Made by a program: the position numbers and the translations under genes. A model generated the notes under the pieces. That model saw only the letters and a list, made by a program, of their open reading frames with translations. It was not told the DNA's origin and searched no databases. Source: an uncultured Piscirickettsiaceae bacterium (lineage in GTDB: Bacteria; Pseudomonadota; Gammaproteobacteria; Methylococcales; Cycloclasticaceae). Taken from it: DNA of 64,000 nt. Positions 33,872-42,079 of this stretch are shown here, in pieces (the stretch's first letter is position 1; every line of letters begins with the position of its first letter). Where the stretch lies: contig CAJXSK010000001.1 of NCBI GenBank assembly GCA_913061075.1, positions 248,001-312,000 of the forward strand, in the 5' to 3' direction.

Positions 33872-34453
33872 ATGACCAAAGAAGCGCTAAGTATCTTGGC
33901 CATTGCATTAACCTTTTATGGTTTTTATCCCTATATTCGCTCCATTAGATTGGGCGAATTCAAACCGCATATGTTTTCGTGGATAATTTGGGCGACCACT
34001 ACATTTATCGTATTTTTCGCACAAATTGAAGGCGGTGGTGGAGCAGGGGCTTGGCCAACAGGTGTATCGGCCATCATCACCTGCTATGTTGCGTACCTTG
34101 CCTACAAAAACATAGGTGATATAAAAATCACGCGGCTGGATTGGGTGTTTTTTCTAACAGCCATGTCATCTATACCGTTTTGGTATGTCACTGCAGACCC
34201 GTTATGGGCGGTTATTATCTTAACAACTGTGGATGTGTTTGGGTTGGCGCCAACACTACGCAAGGCATATTCATTTCCCAATGAAGAAAGTATCCATTTT
34301 TATTCAATCATCTTGTTAAGAAATATTATTTCATTGGTAGCATTAGAGTTGTATTCAGTAACGACAATGCTCTTTCCAGCGGCTGTTAGTGTGTTCTGTT
34401 TAATACTGATTATGATGATTGTTTATCGACGTCGTATCTTAAATAAAGCATGA
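33872..34453 (+). CDS. Conserved-type integral membrane protein of unknown function
   Basis: I do not recognise a definite family. The 193 residues form six or seven predicted membrane helices (about 4-22, 36-52, 62-80, 91-106, 108-125, 143-161, 163-185). Two stretches resemble each other: FYPYIRSIRLGEFKPHMFSW and the later LAPTLRKAYSFPNEESIHFY both have a P-x-[IL]-R-[SK] turn leading into a helix. This resembles PQ-loop/SemiSWEET-like repeats, but that is only an inference. There is a glycine-rich loop (EGGGGAGAWPTG). It lies 37 bases after recJ, and its function cannot be read from the neighbours. Confidence 0.75.
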   Translation: MTKEALSILAIALTFYGFYPYIRSIRLGEFKPHMFSWIIWATTTFIVFFAQIEGGGGAGAWPTGVSAIITCYVAYLAYKNIGDIKITRLDWVFFLTAMSSIPFWYVTADPLWAVIILTTVDVFGLAPTLRKAYSFPNEESIHFYSIILLRNIISLVALELYSVTTMLFPAAVSVFCLILIMMIVYRRRILNKA

Positions 34454-34494: not shown

Positions 34495-34716
34495 ATGCAA
34501 TCTATAGAAATATCAAAAGAACCGGTCGAGTTATACAAAATATTAAAGTTCGAAGGGCTAGTGCCAAGCGGTGGTGAAGCAAAGCTTGTTATCTCGAATG
34601 GTATGGTGCTTTTAAATGGAAAAGTTGAAACGCAAAAAAGGAAAAAGATAATATCCGGCGATATTATTGAATTTGCAAATGAAAAATTCCGTATTAATCT
34701 TGTTGGTGCTCCTTAA
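34495..34716 (+). CDS. Small S4-domain RNA-binding protein (YbcJ-like)
   Basis: A 73-residue protein made almost entirely of one S4 domain. LYKILKFEGLVPSGGEAKLVISNGMVLLNGKVE and the KKIISGDIIEF segment match the YbcJ/YlmL-type small S4 proteins, which bind structured RNA. The target is unknown. It lies 41 bases after the membrane protein gene and six bases before the DksA-like gene. Confidence 0.85.
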   Translation: MQSIEISKEPVELYKILKFEGLVPSGGEAKLVISNGMVLLNGKVETQKRKKIISGDIIEFANEKFRINLVGAP

Positions 34717-34722
34717 CGTTAT

Positions 34723-35049
34723 ATGGATGAGAGACGCATCAAAAAATCATTGCTTAGCTTAAAAGCTGAATTGCAAACTCAAGAAGATGCATTTCAAGAA
34801 ACGAATAAACCATTAGAGTTAGATCAGGCGCGTTTAGGTCGGCTATCACGTATGGATGCAATGCAAGTACAAGAAATGGAACTTGAAACATCTAGGCGCC
34901 GAGTGCTTCACATAACTAAAATTGACGGTGCTCTTATACGCTTAAAAGAAGGTGAGTATGGCTATTGTTATGTTTGTGGAGAAGAACTTGATGAGCGCCG
35001 CCTAAAAATTGATCCGACCACCACGCGTTGTTTACCTTGTGCGGATTAA
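34723..35049 (+). CDS. TraR/DksA family zinc-finger protein
   Basis: A 108-residue DksA-like protein. The N-terminal two thirds are helical and charged (coiled coil). The C-terminal zinc finger has four cysteines: CYVC in GEYGYCYVCGEELDERRL, and CLPC near the end. This matches the short TraR/DksA proteins rather than the full DksA (about 150 residues). Full DksA binds the RNA polymerase secondary channel and works with ppGpp. Whether this short member does so is unknown. Confidence 0.87.
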   Translation: MDERRIKKSLLSLKAELQTQEDAFQETNKPLELDQARLGRLSRMDAMQVQEMELETSRRRVLHITKIDGALIRLKEGEYGYCYVCGEELDERRLKIDPTTTRCLPCAD

Positions 35050-35099
35050 TATAATGTTTTTCAGTTTCAGTTTTAAATTACAGTTCATGCCATATTATA

Positions 35100-35159
35100 T
35101 AAAGGGTAGCGACCCCTTAATGTAAATCGAGGACAGACCCCAATTAACAACCCCCTTTA
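35100..35159. repeat. Palindromic repeat-like intergenic element
   Basis: A stretch bounded by TAAAGGG (35100-35106) and its reverse complement CCCTTTA (35153-35159). Inside, AAGGG and CCCTT pair around TAGCGAC (a GTAG-containing hairpin), and a second GACCCC-type motif (GGACAGACCCC) follows. This resembles REP-type or IS200-like (RAYT) flanking repeats, in which GTAG and GACCCC motifs recur. There is no transposase in the window. Copy number cannot be tested here. Confidence 0.4.
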
Positions 35160-35182
35160 CACTCTAATTCATCAATCCTTTA

Positions 35183-35211
35183 TTTACACTGAACTAATAT
35201 AGTACTAAAAT
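35183..35211 (+). promoter_or_regulatory. Sigma-70 type promoter of the suf operon
   Basis: TTTACA at 35183-35188 (five of six to TTGACA) is separated by 17 bases from TAAAAT at 35206-35211 (five of six to TATAAT). Transcription would begin near 35218, leaving a short leader before the sufR ATG at 35233. An AGAGGA ribosome site lies at 35224-35229. Confidence 0.65.
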
Positions 35212-35221
35212 AGTCCTATAT
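35197..35221. promoter_or_regulatory. IscR/SufR-type operator over the suf -10 box
   Basis: A near-perfect palindrome: ATATAGTACT (35197-35206), five-base spacer AAAAT, AGTCCTATAT (35212-35221). The arms match at nine of ten positions. The ACT-N5-AGT core and ATA/TAT ends match the known [2Fe-2S] type 1 motif of IscR-type Rrf2 regulators. It covers the -10 element, so binding would block RNA polymerase. This predicts autorepression by the first gene, sufR. Confidence 0.6.
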
Positions 35222-35232
35222 AAGAGGATTGT

Positions 35233-35703
35233 ATGCTTAGAGTTAGTAAATTAACAGATTATGCGACGGTAATATTAACGCATATTGCTCATCAGCCTGA
35301 TGAGTTGCACGCTGCGTCTGATATTACGCAGGATACTGGCGTTGCGTTACCGACGGTGAGTAAAGTATTAAAACTACTCGCTAAAGCCAATATTCTTATT
35401 TCATATCGTGGGTCAAAAGGCGGCTATGCGTTGGCCAATAAACCCAATGAAACGAATGTTGCCGAGGTGATTACGGCTATTGAAGGGCCTATTGGCATGA
35501 CGGAATGCACTACAAGTGACGGCACGTGTGAGCAAGAGTCTTCGTGTGAGATTAAAGGTAATTGGAATTTAATTAATAGGGCAGTGTATACGGCATTAGA
35601 GGCGGTTACATTGGCGGATATGGTGGCGCCTGTGCGTCAACAAGCAGTTACTGTTGGACTACCTACGGTAACAAAATCAAACGATTTAAACGTGGAGAAC
35701 TAG
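35233..35703 (+). CDS. sufR: Rrf2-family SUF system regulator
   Basis: First gene of the suf operon, a 156-residue Rrf2/IscR-like transcription factor. The N-terminal winged helix includes LRVSKLTDYATVILTHIA, and the TGVALPTVSKVLKLLAKANIL recognition helix follows. Three cysteines at 92, 99 and 105 (CX6CX5C) are the putative Fe-S ligands; E. coli IscR has Cys92, 98 and 104. It likely binds the palindrome overlapping its own promoter. It is the type known as SUF system Fe-S cluster assembly regulator and is distinct from the cyanobacterial SufR. The stop is directly followed by the sufB ATG. Confidence 0.88.
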   Translation: MLRVSKLTDYATVILTHIAHQPDELHAASDITQDTGVALPTVSKVLKLLAKANILISYRGSKGGYALANKPNETNVAEVITAIEGPIGMTECTTSDGTCEQESSCEIKGNWNLINRAVYTALEAVTLADMVAPVRQQAVTVGLPTVTKSNDLNVEN

Positions 35704-37152
35704 ATGTCAGCATCTAATGAAAATTTAAAGGACATGATTGGTCAAGAGTACAAAGATGGTTTTGTGACTGATATTGAGTCAGATTCTTTCGAGTCGGGCT
35801 TAAACGAAGATGTAATACGAAAACTGTCTGCGATTAAGGAAGAACCAGAGTTTTTGCTTGAATGGCGTTTGGAAGCGTATCGCCACTGGTTAACGATGGA
35901 GCACCCTGAATGGTCGTTTGTTGAGTTCCCAAAAATTGATTTCCAAGATATAAGCTATTATTCCGCACCAAAAAGCATGGCTGATGGCCCGAAAAGCTTA
36001 GATGAGGTTGATCCAGAGCTTATTAGCACCTACAACAAGTTAGGTATTCCGTTAGAAGAGCAAATGCGTTTAGCGGGTGTGGCGGTTGATGCGGTATTTG
36101 ATAGTGTATCTGTTGCGACTACGTTTAAAGATAAGTTATATGAAGCAGGTGTAATTTTCTGCTCGTTCTCTGAAGCGGTTAAAGAGCACCCAGAACTGAT
36201 TAAACAGTATTTAGGTACGGTGGTTTCTCAATACGATAATTTCTATGCTGCATTGAATGCGGCTGTGTTCAGTGATGGCTCGTTTGTGTACATTCCTAAA
36301 GGCGTACGTTGCCCTATGGAGCTTTCAACGTACTTTCGTATTAATGCGGCAAACACAGGTCAATTTGAACGGACACTGATTGTTGCTGAAGAAGGCAGCC
36401 ATGTTAGTTATTTGGAAGGCTGTACAGCACCAATGCGAGATGAAAACCAACTTCATGCGGCGGTAGTTGAATTGGTGATTTTGAAGGATGCAGAGATTAA
36501 ATACTCAACCGTACAAAACTGGTACCCCGGTGATGAAAACGGCGTAGGCGGTATTTACAACTTCGTAACAAAGCGTGCTGAATGTCGAGGCGACAACGCA
36601 AAAGTGTCTTGGACACAAGTTGAAACGGGCTCTGCCATTACATGGAAATACCCAAGTGTTGTTTTGAAGGGTGATAATTCAATTGGTGAGTTTTATTCAG
36701 TGGCACTAACCAATAATTACCAGCAAGCGGATACGGGTACAAAAATGATCCACCACGGTAAAAACACCAGCAGTACTATTATTTCTAAAGGTATTTCTGC
36801 GGGCAAAGGTCAAAACACTTACCGCGGCTTAGTTAAGATTGGTCGTAAGGCAGAAAATGCACGTAATTACACACAGTGTGACTCACTATTAATGGGTGAC
36901 CAATGTGGAGCACACACGTTCCCGTACATTGAAACAAAAAACCCGAGTGCGACGATTGAGCACGAAGCGTCCACATCTAAAATCAGTGAAGACCAATTGT
37001 TCTACTGCATGCAGCGCGGCATATCAGCAGAAGATGCGGTATCAATGATTGTTAATGGCTTCTGTAAGGAAGTGTTTAAAGAATTACCCATGGAGTTTGC
37101 CGTTGAAGCACAAGCTCTATTAGGCATTAGCCTTGAAGGTAGTGTCGGATAA
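35704..37152 (+). CDS. sufB: Fe-S cluster assembly protein SufB
   Basis: Scaffold subunit of the SufBCD complex where new Fe-S clusters are built. It has 482 residues. The beta-helix core has [38 protein letters not shown] and the C-terminal [17 protein letters not shown] block; these match SufB rather than SufD. It follows sufR directly and precedes sufC by 49 bases. Confidence 0.97.
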
Positions 37153-37201
37153 GGAACTCATGCCCAAGGGCATAAATTAAACGTTATTTAGGAATAAGAA
37201 C

Positions 37202-37954
37202 ATGTTAAAAATTGAAAACTTGCACGTTAGTGTCGAAGGTAAAGAGATTTTAAAAGGTATCAACTTAGAAATTGGCACGGGCGAAGTACACGCGATTATG
37301 GGACCAAATGGTTCAGGTAAAAGTACTTTGTCGTACATTCTTGCAGGCCGTGAAGGCTATGATGTGACGGAAGGTCGTGTGCTATTTAACGGCAAAGATT
37401 TGTTAGAAATGAGTGTTGAAGAACGCGCCTGGGCTGGTGTTTTCTTAGCATTTCAATACCCAGTAGAAGTACCGGGTGTGAGCAATATCTATTTTCTAAA
37501 AGCAGCATTGAATGGTATTCGTAAATTCCAAGGCTTATCTGAGTTAGACGCAATGGACTTTATTGGAACAGTAAAAAGCAAAATGAAAGACTTGGAGATG
37601 GATGAGAAGTTCTTATACCGAGCTGTCAATGAAGGCTTTTCAGGTGGTGAAAAAAAACGCAATGAAATTCTTCAAATGTCGGTGCTTGAACCTTCGCTTT
37701 GTTTATTAGATGAAACTGATTCAGGTTTGGATATTGATGCGTTGCAAATTGTTGCAGAAGGCGTTAATCGTTTACGTGACCCTAAGCGCTCGTTCGTATT
37801 GATTACACATTACCAACGTTTGCTGGACTACATTAAACCTGACCATGTGCATGTACTAGCACACGGCAAAGTTGTTAAATCGGGCGGCCCTGAATTAGCT
37901 TTAGAGCTAGAAGAGCAAGGTTATGCTTGGATTGATGAAAAATTAGCGAGTTAA
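37202..37954 (+). CDS. sufC: Fe-S cluster assembly ATPase SufC
   Basis: ABC-type ATPase of the SufBCD scaffold. It has 250 residues. The Walker A motif GPNGSGKST is near residues 34-42. The SufC-type signature FSGGEKKRNEILQM and the Walker B region (LCLLDETDSGLDIDAL) are intact. A GGAA-type ribosome site (TTTAGGAATAAGAAC) precedes the ATG. sufD follows after two bases. Confidence 0.97.
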   Translation: MLKIENLHVSVEGKEILKGINLEIGTGEVHAIMGPNGSGKSTLSYILAGREGYDVTEGRVLFNGKDLLEMSVEERAWAGVFLAFQYPVEVPGVSNIYFLKAALNGIRKFQGLSELDAMDFIGTVKSKMKDLEMDEKFLYRAVNEGFSGGEKKRNEILQMSVLEPSLCLLDETDSGLDIDALQIVAEGVNRLRDPKRSFVLITHYQRLLDYIKPDHVHVLAHGKVVKSGGPELALELEEQGYAWIDEKLAS

Positions 37955-37956
37955 TT

Positions 37957-39285
37957 ATGTCTGTTACACATTTACCTACAGCGCATTTTGAGACGTTAAT
38001 TGCTAAAGAGAAATCACTGTGCGGCAGCGACTTAAATTGGCTTAATAGTTTACGCAAAAAAGCCGTTGATGAGTTTAAAGGAACTGGGTTTCCCTCACCG
38101 CGTGAAGAAGAGTGGCGTTATACAAATATCACACCAATTGAAAAAAGCCAATTTGGTTTAAACAAAAAGGCCGGTAATGTTGATGCTGAATTTCTAAAAA
38201 CAGTATTGATAGATGATTGCCATCACCTTGTGTTCGTTGATGGCTTTTATCAGGCTGAATTGTCATCTGTAGAAACGCTGGCAGAGGGTGTTGTGGTTTC
38301 GTCAGTTAGCGAAGGCTTAGCGGATAACGAAGCACTCATCAAATCGTTGCTTGATTCTGTGGTCGAAACACCTGCATTAGGGTTTGTTAACTTTAATACA
38401 GCCCTGTTTACTGATGGCGCAGTTATTTCAATTGAAGAAAATACAGTCATTGAAAAACCTATTCAAGTCGCCTTTGTTTCTACAAAAAAAAGTGCGCTGA
38501 GTATTTCTAACTGCCGTAATTTAATATTGGCGAAGGCATCATCTAAAGCAACTATTATTGAGAGTTATCATGGTATTGATGATAGCTGTTACTTAAGTAA
38601 TGTCATCTCGGAAATTGTTGTTGAGTCGAATGCGCACTTATCACATAACCGATTACAAGTTGAATCGTTAAAGGCATATCACATCGCTGGTGTTTATTCG
38701 CGCCTAGAAAAAGATGCCATATTTAAACAATATAACTACACATTTGGTGGCATCTTATCGCGTGCTGAAATCCATGCTGAATTAGGCACAGCGTCTGATT
38801 GCAGTTTAGATGGCTTGTATATTGCTGAAGATCACCAACATATGGACAACCATACGAGATTAAACCATGCGCAACCGCATGCGATTAGTAACGAGACGTA
38901 TAAAGGTATTATGAATGACCGTTCGCGGGGTGTTTTTCAAGGGCGAATTATTGTGGCTCAAGATGCGCAAAAAACAGATGCGAAAATGAATAACCGTAAT
39001 TTGTTGTTATCAGATACTGCGGAAGCTGACACGAAACCACAACTTGAAATTTATGCGGACGATGTTAAATGTGCGCACGGTGTGACCGTAGGGCAATTAG
39101 ATGATGCAGCTATTTTCTACTTACGTTCACGTGGTGCTGATGAAGCGATGGCAAAAAACATGCTGACGTTTGCGTTTGCCAATGAAATGGTCGAACGAAT
39201 CGACTACCAACCCTTACGCCTTAAAGTGTTAGAAGAGCTTGTAAAACGTTTCCCACAGCAAGGCATGAAATTAGAGTGGCTATGA
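37957..39285 (+). CDS. sufD: Fe-S cluster assembly protein SufD
   Basis: SufB paralogue and partner in the SufBCD complex. It has 442 residues. EEEWRYTNITPIEK near the N-terminus and the C-terminal IYADDVKCAHGVTVGQLDDAAIFYLRSRGADEAMAKNML block are the family marks; the latter holds the conserved Cys and His. It lies two bases after sufC and overlaps sufS by four bases (ATGA). Confidence 0.96.
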   Translation: MSVTHLPTAHFETLIAKEKSLCGSDLNWLNSLRKKAVDEFKGTGFPSPREEEWRYTNITPIEKSQFGLNKKAGNVDAEFLKTVLIDDCHHLVFVDGFYQAELSSVETLAEGVVVSSVSEGLADNEALIKSLLDSVVETPALGFVNFNTALFTDGAVISIEENTVIEKPIQVAFVSTKKSALSISNCRNLILAKASSKATIIESYHGIDDSCYLSNVISEIVVESNAHLSHNRLQVESLKAYHIAGVYSRLEKDAIFKQYNYTFGGILSRAEIHAELGTASDCSLDGLYIAEDHQHMDNHTRLNHAQPHAISNETYKGIMNDRSRGVFQGRIIVAQDAQKTDAKMNNRNLLLSDTAEADTKPQLEIYADDVKCAHGVTVGQLDDAAIFYLRSRGADEAMAKNMLTFAFANEMVERIDYQPLRLKVLEELVKRFPQQGMKLEWL

Positions 39286-40523
39286 ATCAAGTAGTAACAA
39301 ATATTGATGGTTACGATGTAGAGCGTATACGCCAAGATTTCCCCGTGCTTGACCAAGAAATACGTGGCAAGAAATTGGTGTATTTAGATAATGCGGCGAC
39401 CAGTCAAAAACCTAAAACGGTTATAGATAGCATTGTTAATTATTACGAAAACGACAATGCCAACATTCACCGTGGTGTGCATACATTAAGCGAGCGTGCG
39501 ACGCTTTCTTACGAAAATGCGCGTAAGACGGTGGCGAAGTTTATGAATGCTGAGTCGGAAAAAGAAATCGTATTTACGCGCGGCGCAACTGAAGCAATTA
39601 ATCTCATTGCAAACGCATTTGCAGAGAAACTTTCTGCGGGTGACGAGGTGCTTATTACTGCGATGGAACATCACTCGAACATTGTGCCTTGGCAAATGTT
39701 GTGCGAAAAAACAGGTGCTGTATTAAAAGTAGCGCCAATAAACGAGCGGGGTGAATTAATACTTGAATCGTTTGAGGCGCTCGTCAGTAAAAAAACAAAG
39801 TTTGCTGCTATTTCGCATATGTCGAATGCCTTGGGAACGATTAACCCCATTAAGCAAATGATTGATTTGCTGCATCAGTTTGATGTGCCTGTGTTAATAG
39901 ATGGTGCGCAGGCGATTCCACACATTACAGTTGATGTGCAAGCGTTAGATTGTGAGTTTTATGTGTTCTCTGGTCACAAGCTATATGCCCCAACGGGTAT
40001 TGGTGCACTGTATGGCAAGATGGAGCAGTTGGAACAAATGGCGCCGTATCAAGCTGGTGGTGACATGATAAGTGTTGTCACGTTTGATAAGACGGTTTAC
40101 AACAAAGTGCCGTATAAATTTGAAGCCGGCACACCGAATATTGTTGGAACAATTGGCTTAGGCGCAGCTATTGATTACGTAACAAATATTGGCGTAGATG
40201 CAATAGCGGCCCACGAAAATAGTTTGCTTGAATATGCAGTAGAGCAATCAAAAAAAATCGACAAATTGCGAATTATTGGCACAGCTGAAAACAAAGGTGC
40301 GATTATGTCATTCGTATTGGATGGTATTCATCCGCACGATATTGGCACCATGATGGATCACCAAGGTATAGCAGTACGGGCAGGGCATCATTGTGCGATG
40401 CCTGTGATGGATTTCTTCGGTGTGCCGGCAACGGCCAGAGCGTCGTTTGCTATGTATAACACGCACGAAGAAGTGGACGCGTTAATGGCTGGAATTGAAA
40501 ACTTAATTGAGATGTTTGGCTAA
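39282..40523 (+). CDS. sufS: Cysteine desulfurase SufS
   Basis: PLP enzyme that supplies persulfide sulfur from cysteine. With the ATG at 39282 it has 413 residues. VYLDNAATSQKPKTVIDSI, NIHRGVHTLSERATLSYENAR, the PLP Lys in FSGHKLYAPTGIG and the active Cys371 in AGHHCAMPVM are intact. A GTG two codons upstream (39276) is also open but lies inside sufD. No sufE is present; the adjacent sufU likely receives the sulfur. Confidence 0.96.
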   Translation: MNQVVTNIDGYDVERIRQDFPVLDQEIRGKKLVYLDNAATSQKPKTVIDSIVNYYENDNANIHRGVHTLSERATLSYENARKTVAKFMNAESEKEIVFTRGATEAINLIANAFAEKLSAGDEVLITAMEHHSNIVPWQMLCEKTGAVLKVAPINERGELILESFEALVSKKTKFAAISHMSNALGTINPIKQMIDLLHQFDVPVLIDGAQAIPHITVDVQALDCEFYVFSGHKLYAPTGIGALYGKMEQLEQMAPYQAGGDMISVVTFDKTVYNKVPYKFEAGTPNIVGTIGLGAAIDYVTNIGVDAIAAHENSLLEYAVEQSKKIDKLRIIGTAENKGAIMSFVLDGIHPHDIGTMMDHQGIAVRAGHHCAMPVMDFFGVPATARASFAMYNTHEEVDALMAGIENLIEMFG

Positions 40524-40969
40524 TGTTAGATGATTTAAGAGACCTGTATCAAGAAGTTATTTTTGACCACAATAGAAACCCTAGAAACTTTCGTGCAATG
40601 GACGATGCAGACCGTCAAATAGATGGTTTTAATCCACTGTGCGGTGATCGTATAACGTTGTTTATAAAGCTAACGGGTAACAAAATTAGCGATGCAAGTT
40701 TTCAAGGCCAAGGCTGTGCTATTTCAACGGCATCAGCCTCATTAATGACGGATATCGTTAAAGGCCAAACAGAAGATGAAGCACAAAATTTGTTTTCACT
40801 GTTTCATAAAATGGCAACAGGCGAGCACGTCGAAATGGACGACTTAGGAAAATTGGCTGTATTAGCTGGCGTTTGTGAATACCCAGCACGTGTAAAGTGT
40901 GCAACGTTGCCGTGGCACACATTGGATGCTTTGTTGAAAGGCGCTGAAGAACCCGTTACAACAGAGTAA
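40523..40969 (+). CDS. sufU: SufU-type Fe-S scaffold/sulfurtransferase
   Basis: IscU-like protein of 148 residues, of the SufU branch. The metal ligands are visible: Cys40 and Asp42 in NPLCGD, Cys65 in GQGCAIS and Cys126 in VKCATLPW. An insertion near residues 70-95 distinguishes SufU from IscU. In Gram-positive relatives SufU is a zinc-dependent sulfur acceptor for SufS. Adjacency to sufS, with a one-base overlap (TAATG), and the lack of sufE support that role. No other suf gene follows; prfB starts 12 bases later. Confidence 0.93.
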   Translation: MLDDLRDLYQEVIFDHNRNPRNFRAMDDADRQIDGFNPLCGDRITLFIKLTGNKISDASFQGQGCAISTASASLMTDIVKGQTEDEAQNLFSLFHKMATGEHVEMDDLGKLAVLAGVCEYPARVKCATLPWHTLDALLKGAEEPVTTE

Positions 40970-40980
40970 CCTTTACGATA

Positions 40981-42079
40981 ATGCGTGAGCTAAACCCGAT
41001 TACCAATAAAATATCAGACCTTAAAGAGCGGACGATTTCGCTTAGGGGGTACCTTTGACTTTGAAACGAAACATGAGCGTCTTACTGAAGTTTTAAGAGA
41101 ACTTGAAGACCCTGCGGCCTGGAATGATCCTGCTAGAGCGCAAGCTTTGGGTAAGGAACGAGGTCAGCTGGAATTGGTTGTCGATACGATAACTGAATTA
41201 ACATCTGGGCTCGACGACGTAAACGATTTACTAGAGATGGCCGTTGAAGATAATGACGATGAAACGGTCGGCACCCTTGATGATGAGCTGACTGTTTACG
41301 AAAAAAAAGTAGCCAATCTTGAGTTTCAACGGATGTTCTCTGGTGATATGGACGCGAACAGTGCATTCTTAGATATTCAGTCAGGTTCTGGTGGAACTGA
41401 AGCTCAAGATTGGGCAGAAATGATATTGCGCATGTACCTTCGTTGGGCTGAACAGCACGACTTTAAAACAGAGTTAATTGAAGTGTCGTCGGGTGATGTG
41501 GCAGGCATTAAAAGCGCTACTATTTCAATTCAAGGTGATTATGTATACGGCTGGTTACGGACTGAAATTGGCGTACACCGCCTAGTTCGTAAATCTCCAT
41601 TCGATTCAGGTAGTCGTCGTCATACCTCTTTCGCCGCCGTTTTCGTATCACCAGAAATAGACGATGATATTGAAATTGATATCAACCCTGCTGATTTGAG
41701 AATTGACGTGTATCGCGCTAGTGGCGCGGGTGGCCAGCACGTGAATAAAACTGAATCTGCGGTGCGTATCACCCATGAGCCAACAAACACAGTGGTTCAA
41801 TGCCAGAATGATCGTTCTCAACACAAAAATAAAGCCACGGCGATGAAACAGTTAAAAGCCAAGTTGTACGAGTTAGAAATGCAGAAGAAAATGGCAGACC
41901 AGCAAACCCAAGAAGAAGGTAAGTCGGATATTGGGTGGGGAAGTCAGATACGTTCGTACGTACTGGATCAATCCAGAATTAAAGATTTACGCACCGGTGT
42001 AGAAACCGGTAATACACAGGCCGTGCTTGATGGAGCATTGGATCAATTTATTGAAGCTAGTTTAAAAAGTGGAATTTAA
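40981..42079 (+). CDS. prfB: Peptide chain release factor 2, programmed +1 frameshift
   Basis: Recognises UGA and UAA stop codons. Codons 1-25 run from the ATG at 40981 to CTT at 41053-41055. An in-frame TGA follows at 41056. Skipping the T at 41056 continues as Asp (GAC at 41057) to the stop at 42079, giving 365 residues, the E. coli length. The shift site CTT TGA C is preceded by AGGGGG (41044-41049), the internal Shine-Dalgarno-like stimulator. Downstream, RKSPFDSG (the tripeptide SPF motif) and [16 protein letters not shown] (GGQ) are intact. Autoregulation by low RF2 is well established for this layout. It lies 12 bases after sufU and three bases before lysS. Confidence 0.97.
41044..41059 (+). 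promoter_or_regulatory. prfB recoding site
   Basis: AGG GGG TAC CTT TGA C: a Shine-Dalgarno-like AGGGGG lies six bases before the slippery CTT and its TGA. It is the standard RF2 autoregulatory frameshift signal, here fully conserved. Confidence 0.95.

Follow-up and report, generated by a model that had tools for sequence, protein, structure and literature searches.

A conserved palindrome over the -10 hexamer of the suf promoter in Methylococcales, a putative operator of the Rrf2 regulator SufR

The window analysed here is a stretch of 64,000 nucleotides from an uncultured Piscirickettsiaceae bacterium whose genome (the host genome) has a size of 2.26 Mb. Its forward strand carries a predicted operon in the order sufR-sufB-sufC-sufD-sufS-sufU (35233-40969). 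The first gene, sufR (35233-35703), had been described from the sequence alone as encoding an Rrf2 regulator with cysteines at 92, 99 and 105, and so it does: the protein matches TIGR02944 over profile positions 1-130 of 130 (163.1 bits, cut-off 110.65), and Cys92 (35506-35508), Cys99 (35527-35529) and Cys105 (35545-35547) are accompanied by Asp9 (35257-35259) and Lys108 (35554-35556). The stop codon of sufR directly abuts the ATG of sufB (35704-37152; NF008773, 923.5 bits), which is followed by sufC (37202-37954; TIGR01978, 364.5 bits), sufD (37957-39285; TIGR01981, 268.2 bits), sufS (39276-40523; TIGR01979, 597.4 bits) and sufU (40523-40969; TIGR01994, 164.3 bits). SufU is the sole NifU_N-type match in the host genome. 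No IscS over the cut-off was found there (an IscS-like desulfurase reaches 346.9 bits), nor any IscR, the single TIGR02010 match being SufR itself, and no IscU was found in Cycloclasticus. No free-standing Rrf2 protein besides SufR was found in the host genome; the other Rrf2 match (locus L002, 33 bits) corresponds to the C-terminal portion of a 449-residue ORF that resembles a membrane protein as judged by eye. With no IscR or IscU found, SufR is probably the only Rrf2-type control of the sole Fe-S assembly operon in Cycloclasticus. Its closest named relatives (L171-L176, 73-89% identity) come from Cycloclasticus in five of six cases and from Methylococcaceae bacterium UBA975 in the sixth, and the next ones are mostly from methanotrophs of the Methylococcales; on this footing the host is taken to be a Cycloclasticus. 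Around the operon, no RNA element reached the Rfam gathering level in 34500-36000, and a 193-residue protein without a Pfam match (33872-34453) has long hydrophobic stretches by eye. For a prfB-like ORF (40981-42079), the only listed start is a TTG at 41147; further upstream lie an ATG at 40981 and CTTAGGGGGTACCTTTGAC, an arrangement that resembles the programmed frameshift usual for RF2 genes.

Upstream of sufR, TTTACA (-35; 35183-35188) and TAAAAT (-10; 35206-35211) can be read directly, 17 bases apart as the sequence-only reading had stated, and together they match the consensus at 10 of 12 positions. The 25-base near-palindrome with an ACT-N5-AGT core that the same reading had placed over the -10 hexamer is likewise present, as ATATAGTACT-AAAAT-AGTCCTATAT (35197-35221, forward strand; referred to here as the putative SufR operator), with 9 of 10 arm pairs and with its end 11 bases 5' of sufR. 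The left arm reads GTACT in the window, against GGACT order-wide. From general promoter geometry, transcription would be expected to start about 7 bases past the -10 hexamer (35217-35219), and a Shine-Dalgarno-like AGAGGA follows at 35223-35228. But what is the symmetry worth? The window holds three palindromes of equal quality (arms of 10+10, N5, at least 9 pairs), and ten first-order Markov shuffles of it hold 3.6 on average; promoter-like matches in 34500-41500 number 17 against 16.1 in shuffles. Since symmetry and hexamers are at chance level, by themselves they are insufficient to establish an operator; the significance of the candidate site lies in its position and its conservation, and conservation is decisive. 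Nowhere else in the window is the 25-mer matched, even with three mismatches allowed. Two smaller repeats lie nearby: TTTACACT is present twice (35156 and 35183, 27 bases apart), with the correct -10 spacing for the second copy only, and a partial second ACT-N5-AGT (AACT-AATAT-AGTAC, 35191-35206), found in only 3 of 15 promoters of the genus, overlaps the left arm of the operator.

Is the palindrome kept in relatives? This was the check named beforehand, and the palindrome came through it well, both in the order and in the class. Among 61 Methylococcales genomes, host genome included, 58 have a TIGR02944 match, 57 of them over the cut-off, and all 57 of these loci, once fetched, have the palindrome upstream of sufR (of the duplicate pair L001 and L032 only L032 was kept, with the right-hand one of its two overlapping matches; for L018, whose gene starts within the operator, the stretch read was extended by 30 bases of coding sequence). 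The sites were picked with an expression that fixes or limits positions 8-18, so that the expression itself accounts for part of the conservation there; at positions 1-7 and 19-25, which it left free, the outer arm bases are kept (A5 in 52, G6 in 53, C19 in 50 and C20 in 56 of the 57 promoters). The majority operator is AAATAGGACTAAAATAGTCCTAAAT in the 42 sites outside Cycloclasticus and ATATAGTACTAAAATAGTCCTATAT in the 15 sites within it, 11 of which have exactly the window sequence. Arm pairing reaches 9-10 of 10 in all 15 sites of the genus, and 5-8 in 41 of the 42 elsewhere, the remaining one having 9. The -35 hexamer varies inside the genus (TTTACA, TGTACA, TATACA). In L018 (genome G016), the start codon of sufR lies within the right arm of the operator, 8 bases past the -10 hexamer, and the sufR mRNA may be leaderless.

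A model of the operator sequence alone recovered it in 57 of the 61 genomes, always on the strand of sufR and at a distance of -1 to 29 bases from where the gene match begins; the four genomes lacking it (G003, G006, G010, G045) are those with no TIGR02944 match over the cut-off. As the model was built from these same sites, the new information is the scarcity of others: one weaker extra match was found across the 61 genomes (G016, E 0.037), and the search of the host genome returned the window operator and one further match at E 0.54, with at most 128-150 prefiltered candidates scored per genome, so that weak sites may be missed. A large SufR regulon was considered and rejected, as a half-pattern scan allowing one mismatch gave 22+13 matches against 34+31 in the reversed control, and in the model search the operator was near-unique per genome at the thresholds used.

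Across the wider class, TIGR02944 exceeds its cut-off in 78 of 276 gammaproteobacterial genomes searched. From these, 68 new loci were taken (the eight weakest were left out, and G000 and G020 were already included), and 67 were scored, since L087 duplicates L040. The operator score lies above the 99th percentile of shuffled controls in 63 of the 67 and above the maximum of all 1,340 controls in 54; L073, L075, L086 and L124 fall under the 99% level, and some of the weak matches sit 100-200 bases upstream. At the loci of named SufR relatives, 64 of which are outside the 57, a weight-matrix scan of both strands of 200 bases, as also used for the class loci, found an operator above 14 bits, a threshold derived from the class-locus scan, in 80 of 80.

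How would such a site work? As the palindrome is conserved, tied to sufR and laid over the -10 hexamer, its best reading is direct autorepression by the three-cysteine Rrf2 protein, as the sequence-only reading had predicted. We infer the binding, the sign of the regulation and the role of the cluster. In the simplest reading, a SufR dimer carrying an Fe-S cluster would bind the operator, cover the -10 hexamer and block RNA polymerase; when clusters become scarce or damaged, apo-SufR would release the operator, and the operon, sufR included, would be derepressed. We give this explanation as a whole a probability of about 0.83. Against the operator reading, the central AAAAT could be retained for the -10 hexamer alone.

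Might SufR bind here and activate instead, or repress as the apo form? The sign of regulation is unreadable from the sequence, but the site is placed on the -10 hexamer, where an activator is not expected to bind. Apo-IscR of Rhodobacter sphaeroides acts as an activator at some genes and as a repressor at one promoter (PMC4618611, PMC6956336), whereas the close precedent, RisR of Myxococcus xanthus, represses as the holo protein (PMC9973013), and we consider either variant improbable. More improbable still is a conserved promoter with accidental symmetry and no operator: the chance-level palindrome count in the window would suit it, as would the strong conservation of both hexamers in the order (TTTAC in all 21 genera when each is sampled at one site), but in the same 21-genus sample, where spacer positions -7, -6 and -4 are variable (0.16-0.42 bits), free bases outside the hexamers are kept (A1 in 21, A5 in 19, G6 in 20, C19 in 18 and C20 in 21 genera), and the operator also occurs in class loci with a different -35.

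The palindrome had also been labelled an IscR type 1 site, and this label does not stand. The E. coli consensus is ATASYYGACTRWWWYAGTCRRSTAT (PMC6599224), and the window operator agrees with it at 18 of 25 positions, including the ACT-N5-AGT core and the ATA/TAT ends. At the YY (5-6) and RR (20-21) positions of type 1 sites, however, the window has AG/CT, as do most SufR operators, and neither YY nor RR occurs in any of the 57 order sites (0/57 each), from which we conclude that the operator is not of IscR type 1. Nor do the genomes favour binding by IscR as at the E. coli isc promoter: besides its absence among the proteins found in the host genome, the operator persists in 18 genomes in which IscR was not detected, and 22 of the 29 isc promoters examined in IscR-bearing relatives carry a different site, TTGAC-N10-GG, which has the spacing TT-N13-GG. 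IscR was counted as present at 190 bits or more on TIGR02010 (38 of the 61 order genomes); 30 of the 38 had loci for the isc promoter set, and one start was not found. Taken together, a type 1 operator bound by IscR is very improbable.

The protein tells the same regulators apart. SufR scores 68.3 bits on the IscR model TIGR02010 (cut-off 207.55) and 49.9 bits on the NsrR model NF008240 (cut-off 182). In an alignment of 124 SufR and 13 IscR sequences (the latter from 13 of the 38 IscR-bearing genomes of the order), position 9 is Asp in 124 of 124 SufR and Arg in all 12 IscR having that residue, and Cys92, Cys99 and Cys105 are invariant in SufR, bar one sequence that ends at residue 93. The place of His107 in IscR, occupied by Lys108 here, is His in 13 of 13 IscR and in 0 of the 122 SufR with a residue there. 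The recognition residues Ser40, Glu43 and Gln44, present in 13 of 13 IscR, are replaced by Pro40, Ser43 and Lys44 in the SufR of the window (115, 99 and all 124 of the aligned SufR, respectively). With a score below the cut-off, no His at the His107 place and none of the three recognition residues, SufR was rejected as an IscR. Which residues, then, would hold the cluster? The [4Fe-4S] cluster of Streptomyces coelicolor NsrR has as ligands three cysteines and, from the partner subunit, Asp8; the same source names Cys104 and His107 for IscR (PMC5411485). SufR Asp9 aligns with that Asp8 (37.6 bits to the solved chain). These correspondences suggest, with less certainty, that the predicted ligands are the three cysteines and Asp9, as in [4Fe-4S] NsrR and not as in the Cys3-His [2Fe-2S] IscR, and the cluster of this NsrR-like site would perhaps be [4Fe-4S]. 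The structure model of SufR (pLDDT 72.8, with the cluster loop, residues 88-108, below 50) confirms the Rrf2 fold.

A second palindrome appears in relatives. Conserved bases upstream of the -35 hexamer are seen in the per-genus promoter profile, and in many Methylococcales the hexamer is embedded in AACCWAG-N7-CTWGG(TT), as it is in L016, L029 and L036 (with AACCAAGTGCTTTACTTGGTT in the last). The E. coli IscR type 2 motif, xxWWWWCCxYAxxxxxxxTRxGGWWWWxx (PMC4055776), shares with it the spacing CC-N13-GG; the bases beside CC and GG differ. Is it linked to IscR? Under a register and a criterion chosen after viewing the promoters, three or all four of the CC/GG bases are present in 34 of the 37 genomes that have both IscR and sufR, in both of the two whose iscR frames are broken and in none of the 18 without IscR; for strict CC-N13-GG, counted by hand, the figures are 17 of 37, 2 of 2 and 0 of 18. 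The IscR genomes under 3 of 4 are G044 and G058, of one genus, and G036, where CC-N13-GG stands one base out of register. In genomes with IscR, pairing averages 4.1 of 8 in register and 1.2-2.4 at slid positions; in those without IscR the averages are 2.4 and 1.7-3.1. Among the new named loci, 49 of 64 have at least 3 of the 4 bases. In three Methylococcales loci, L202, L207 and L246, the palindrome seems to have decayed. The 18 genomes without IscR amount to few events, being 15 Cycloclasticus, two of family f3 (85 and 91% complete) and Crenothrix polyspora (G055, L230). In the SufR tree, family f7 (G023) is sister to the six Cycloclasticus included with support 99, deeper nodes being weaker; the other f7 genome, G029, has IscR as well as a copy of the element that departs at one base (AACATAG-N7-CTAGGTT), which makes a loss in Cycloclasticus plausible. 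In G025 and G031 (family f2), the iscR frames look broken by an internal stop or a split and the palindrome is kept; this could be a recent loss or an assembly error.

The element is not conserved class-wide, where it is found in 2 of 19 loci with IscR and 4 of 34 lacking it; tolerating a one-base shift raises these figures to 4 of 19 and 9 of 34. For this count, 14 of the 67 loci were dropped for an operator score under 14 or for lying too near an end. L090, of another family, has AACCTAG-N7-CTTGGTT in a different register. Genome-wide, the pattern gave 98 forward matches against 104 for the reversed control, summed by hand over 61 genomes; with no enrichment, the palindrome is claimed in place only. 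A tentative reading, to which we would give slightly less than even odds as a whole, is that the Methylococcales suf promoter is a two-input switch, with SufR (Asp and three Cys, probably [4Fe-4S]) sitting on the -10 hexamer and IscR ([2Fe-2S]) on the -35 hexamer, at AACCWAG-N7-CTWGG with type 2 geometry. The isc promoters would keep TT-N13-GG as a type 1-like site, and lineages without IscR (Cycloclasticus, f3, Crenothrix polyspora) lack the -35 operator and keep the -10 one, which in Cycloclasticus may have been sharpened to its 9-10 pairs. If true, one promoter would respond to two kinds of cluster by way of two sister regulators, and these lineages would be natural loss experiments.

The type of circuit is already known. 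Its closest tested case is RisR of M. xanthus, which footprints T(t/g)GAC-N7-GTCC(t/a) over the hexamers of the isc and suf promoters and represses both; mutation of the palindrome raises expression 3- to 4-fold, and a [4Fe-4S] cluster has been suggested (PMC9973013). Set beside the published description of RisR, SufR is likewise a three-cysteine Rrf2 protein with, as we infer here, negative feedback on suf. The order consensus of its operator, GGAC-N7-GTCC, fits the GAC-N7-GTC palindrome of RisR, with AT-rich flanks over promoter hexamers, and the window operator has TAC-N7-GTC. RisR controls isc and suf, whereas here there is one target and no isc was found. S. coelicolor NsrR shares the three cysteines and the N-terminal Asp (Asp8 there, Asp9 here) and differs in being an NO sensor with other targets (PMC5411485). 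The cyanobacterial and mycobacterial SufR has the same name and is also an Fe-S repressor of suf, but its helix-turn-helix is ArsR-like, not Rrf2 (PMC9973013). E. coli IscR shares with SufR the Rrf2 fold, the three cysteines, the ACT-N5-AGT core and the position as first gene of an Fe-S assembly operon; it differs in the YY/RR bases, in His107 and Ser40/Glu43/Gln44, and in heading isc instead of suf. The IscR of Xanthomonas campestris, reportedly studied by Fuangthong in 2015, presumably belongs to the same TIGR02944 family, to judge from the family name. X. campestris is a gammaproteobacterium with a SUF system only, and an IscR site is cited for it (PMC6599224; the IscR study is also cited in PMC8593673); as far as these citations tell, it resembles the present case in having an Rrf2 regulator. 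IscR controls isc-suf operons in Caulobacter (PMC11475020) and Rhodobacter (PMC4618611, PMC6956336), where the regulator gene, iscR, is first in an operon under its own control, as predicted here; the Caulobacter protein has retained Cys3-His and governs a broad regulon, that of Rhodobacter has a single cysteine, and their operators differ from that of SufR. The earlier remark that such a circuit is less well known for suf than for isc is thus right in part, given these IscR-run isc-suf operons and the cited X. campestris site. In the literature searched, which largely left out subscription papers, there was no mention of the accession TIGR02944, no study of this operator in Methylococcales, and no description of the operator variant, the Asp-bearing family or the two-operator promoter.

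Three features, namely the conserved operator, Asp9 as a likely ligand and the second palindrome linked to IscR, offer direct tests of how sister regulators may split the sensing of [4Fe-4S] and [2Fe-2S] clusters, and the same features would also test what befalls a promoter after the loss of one regulator.
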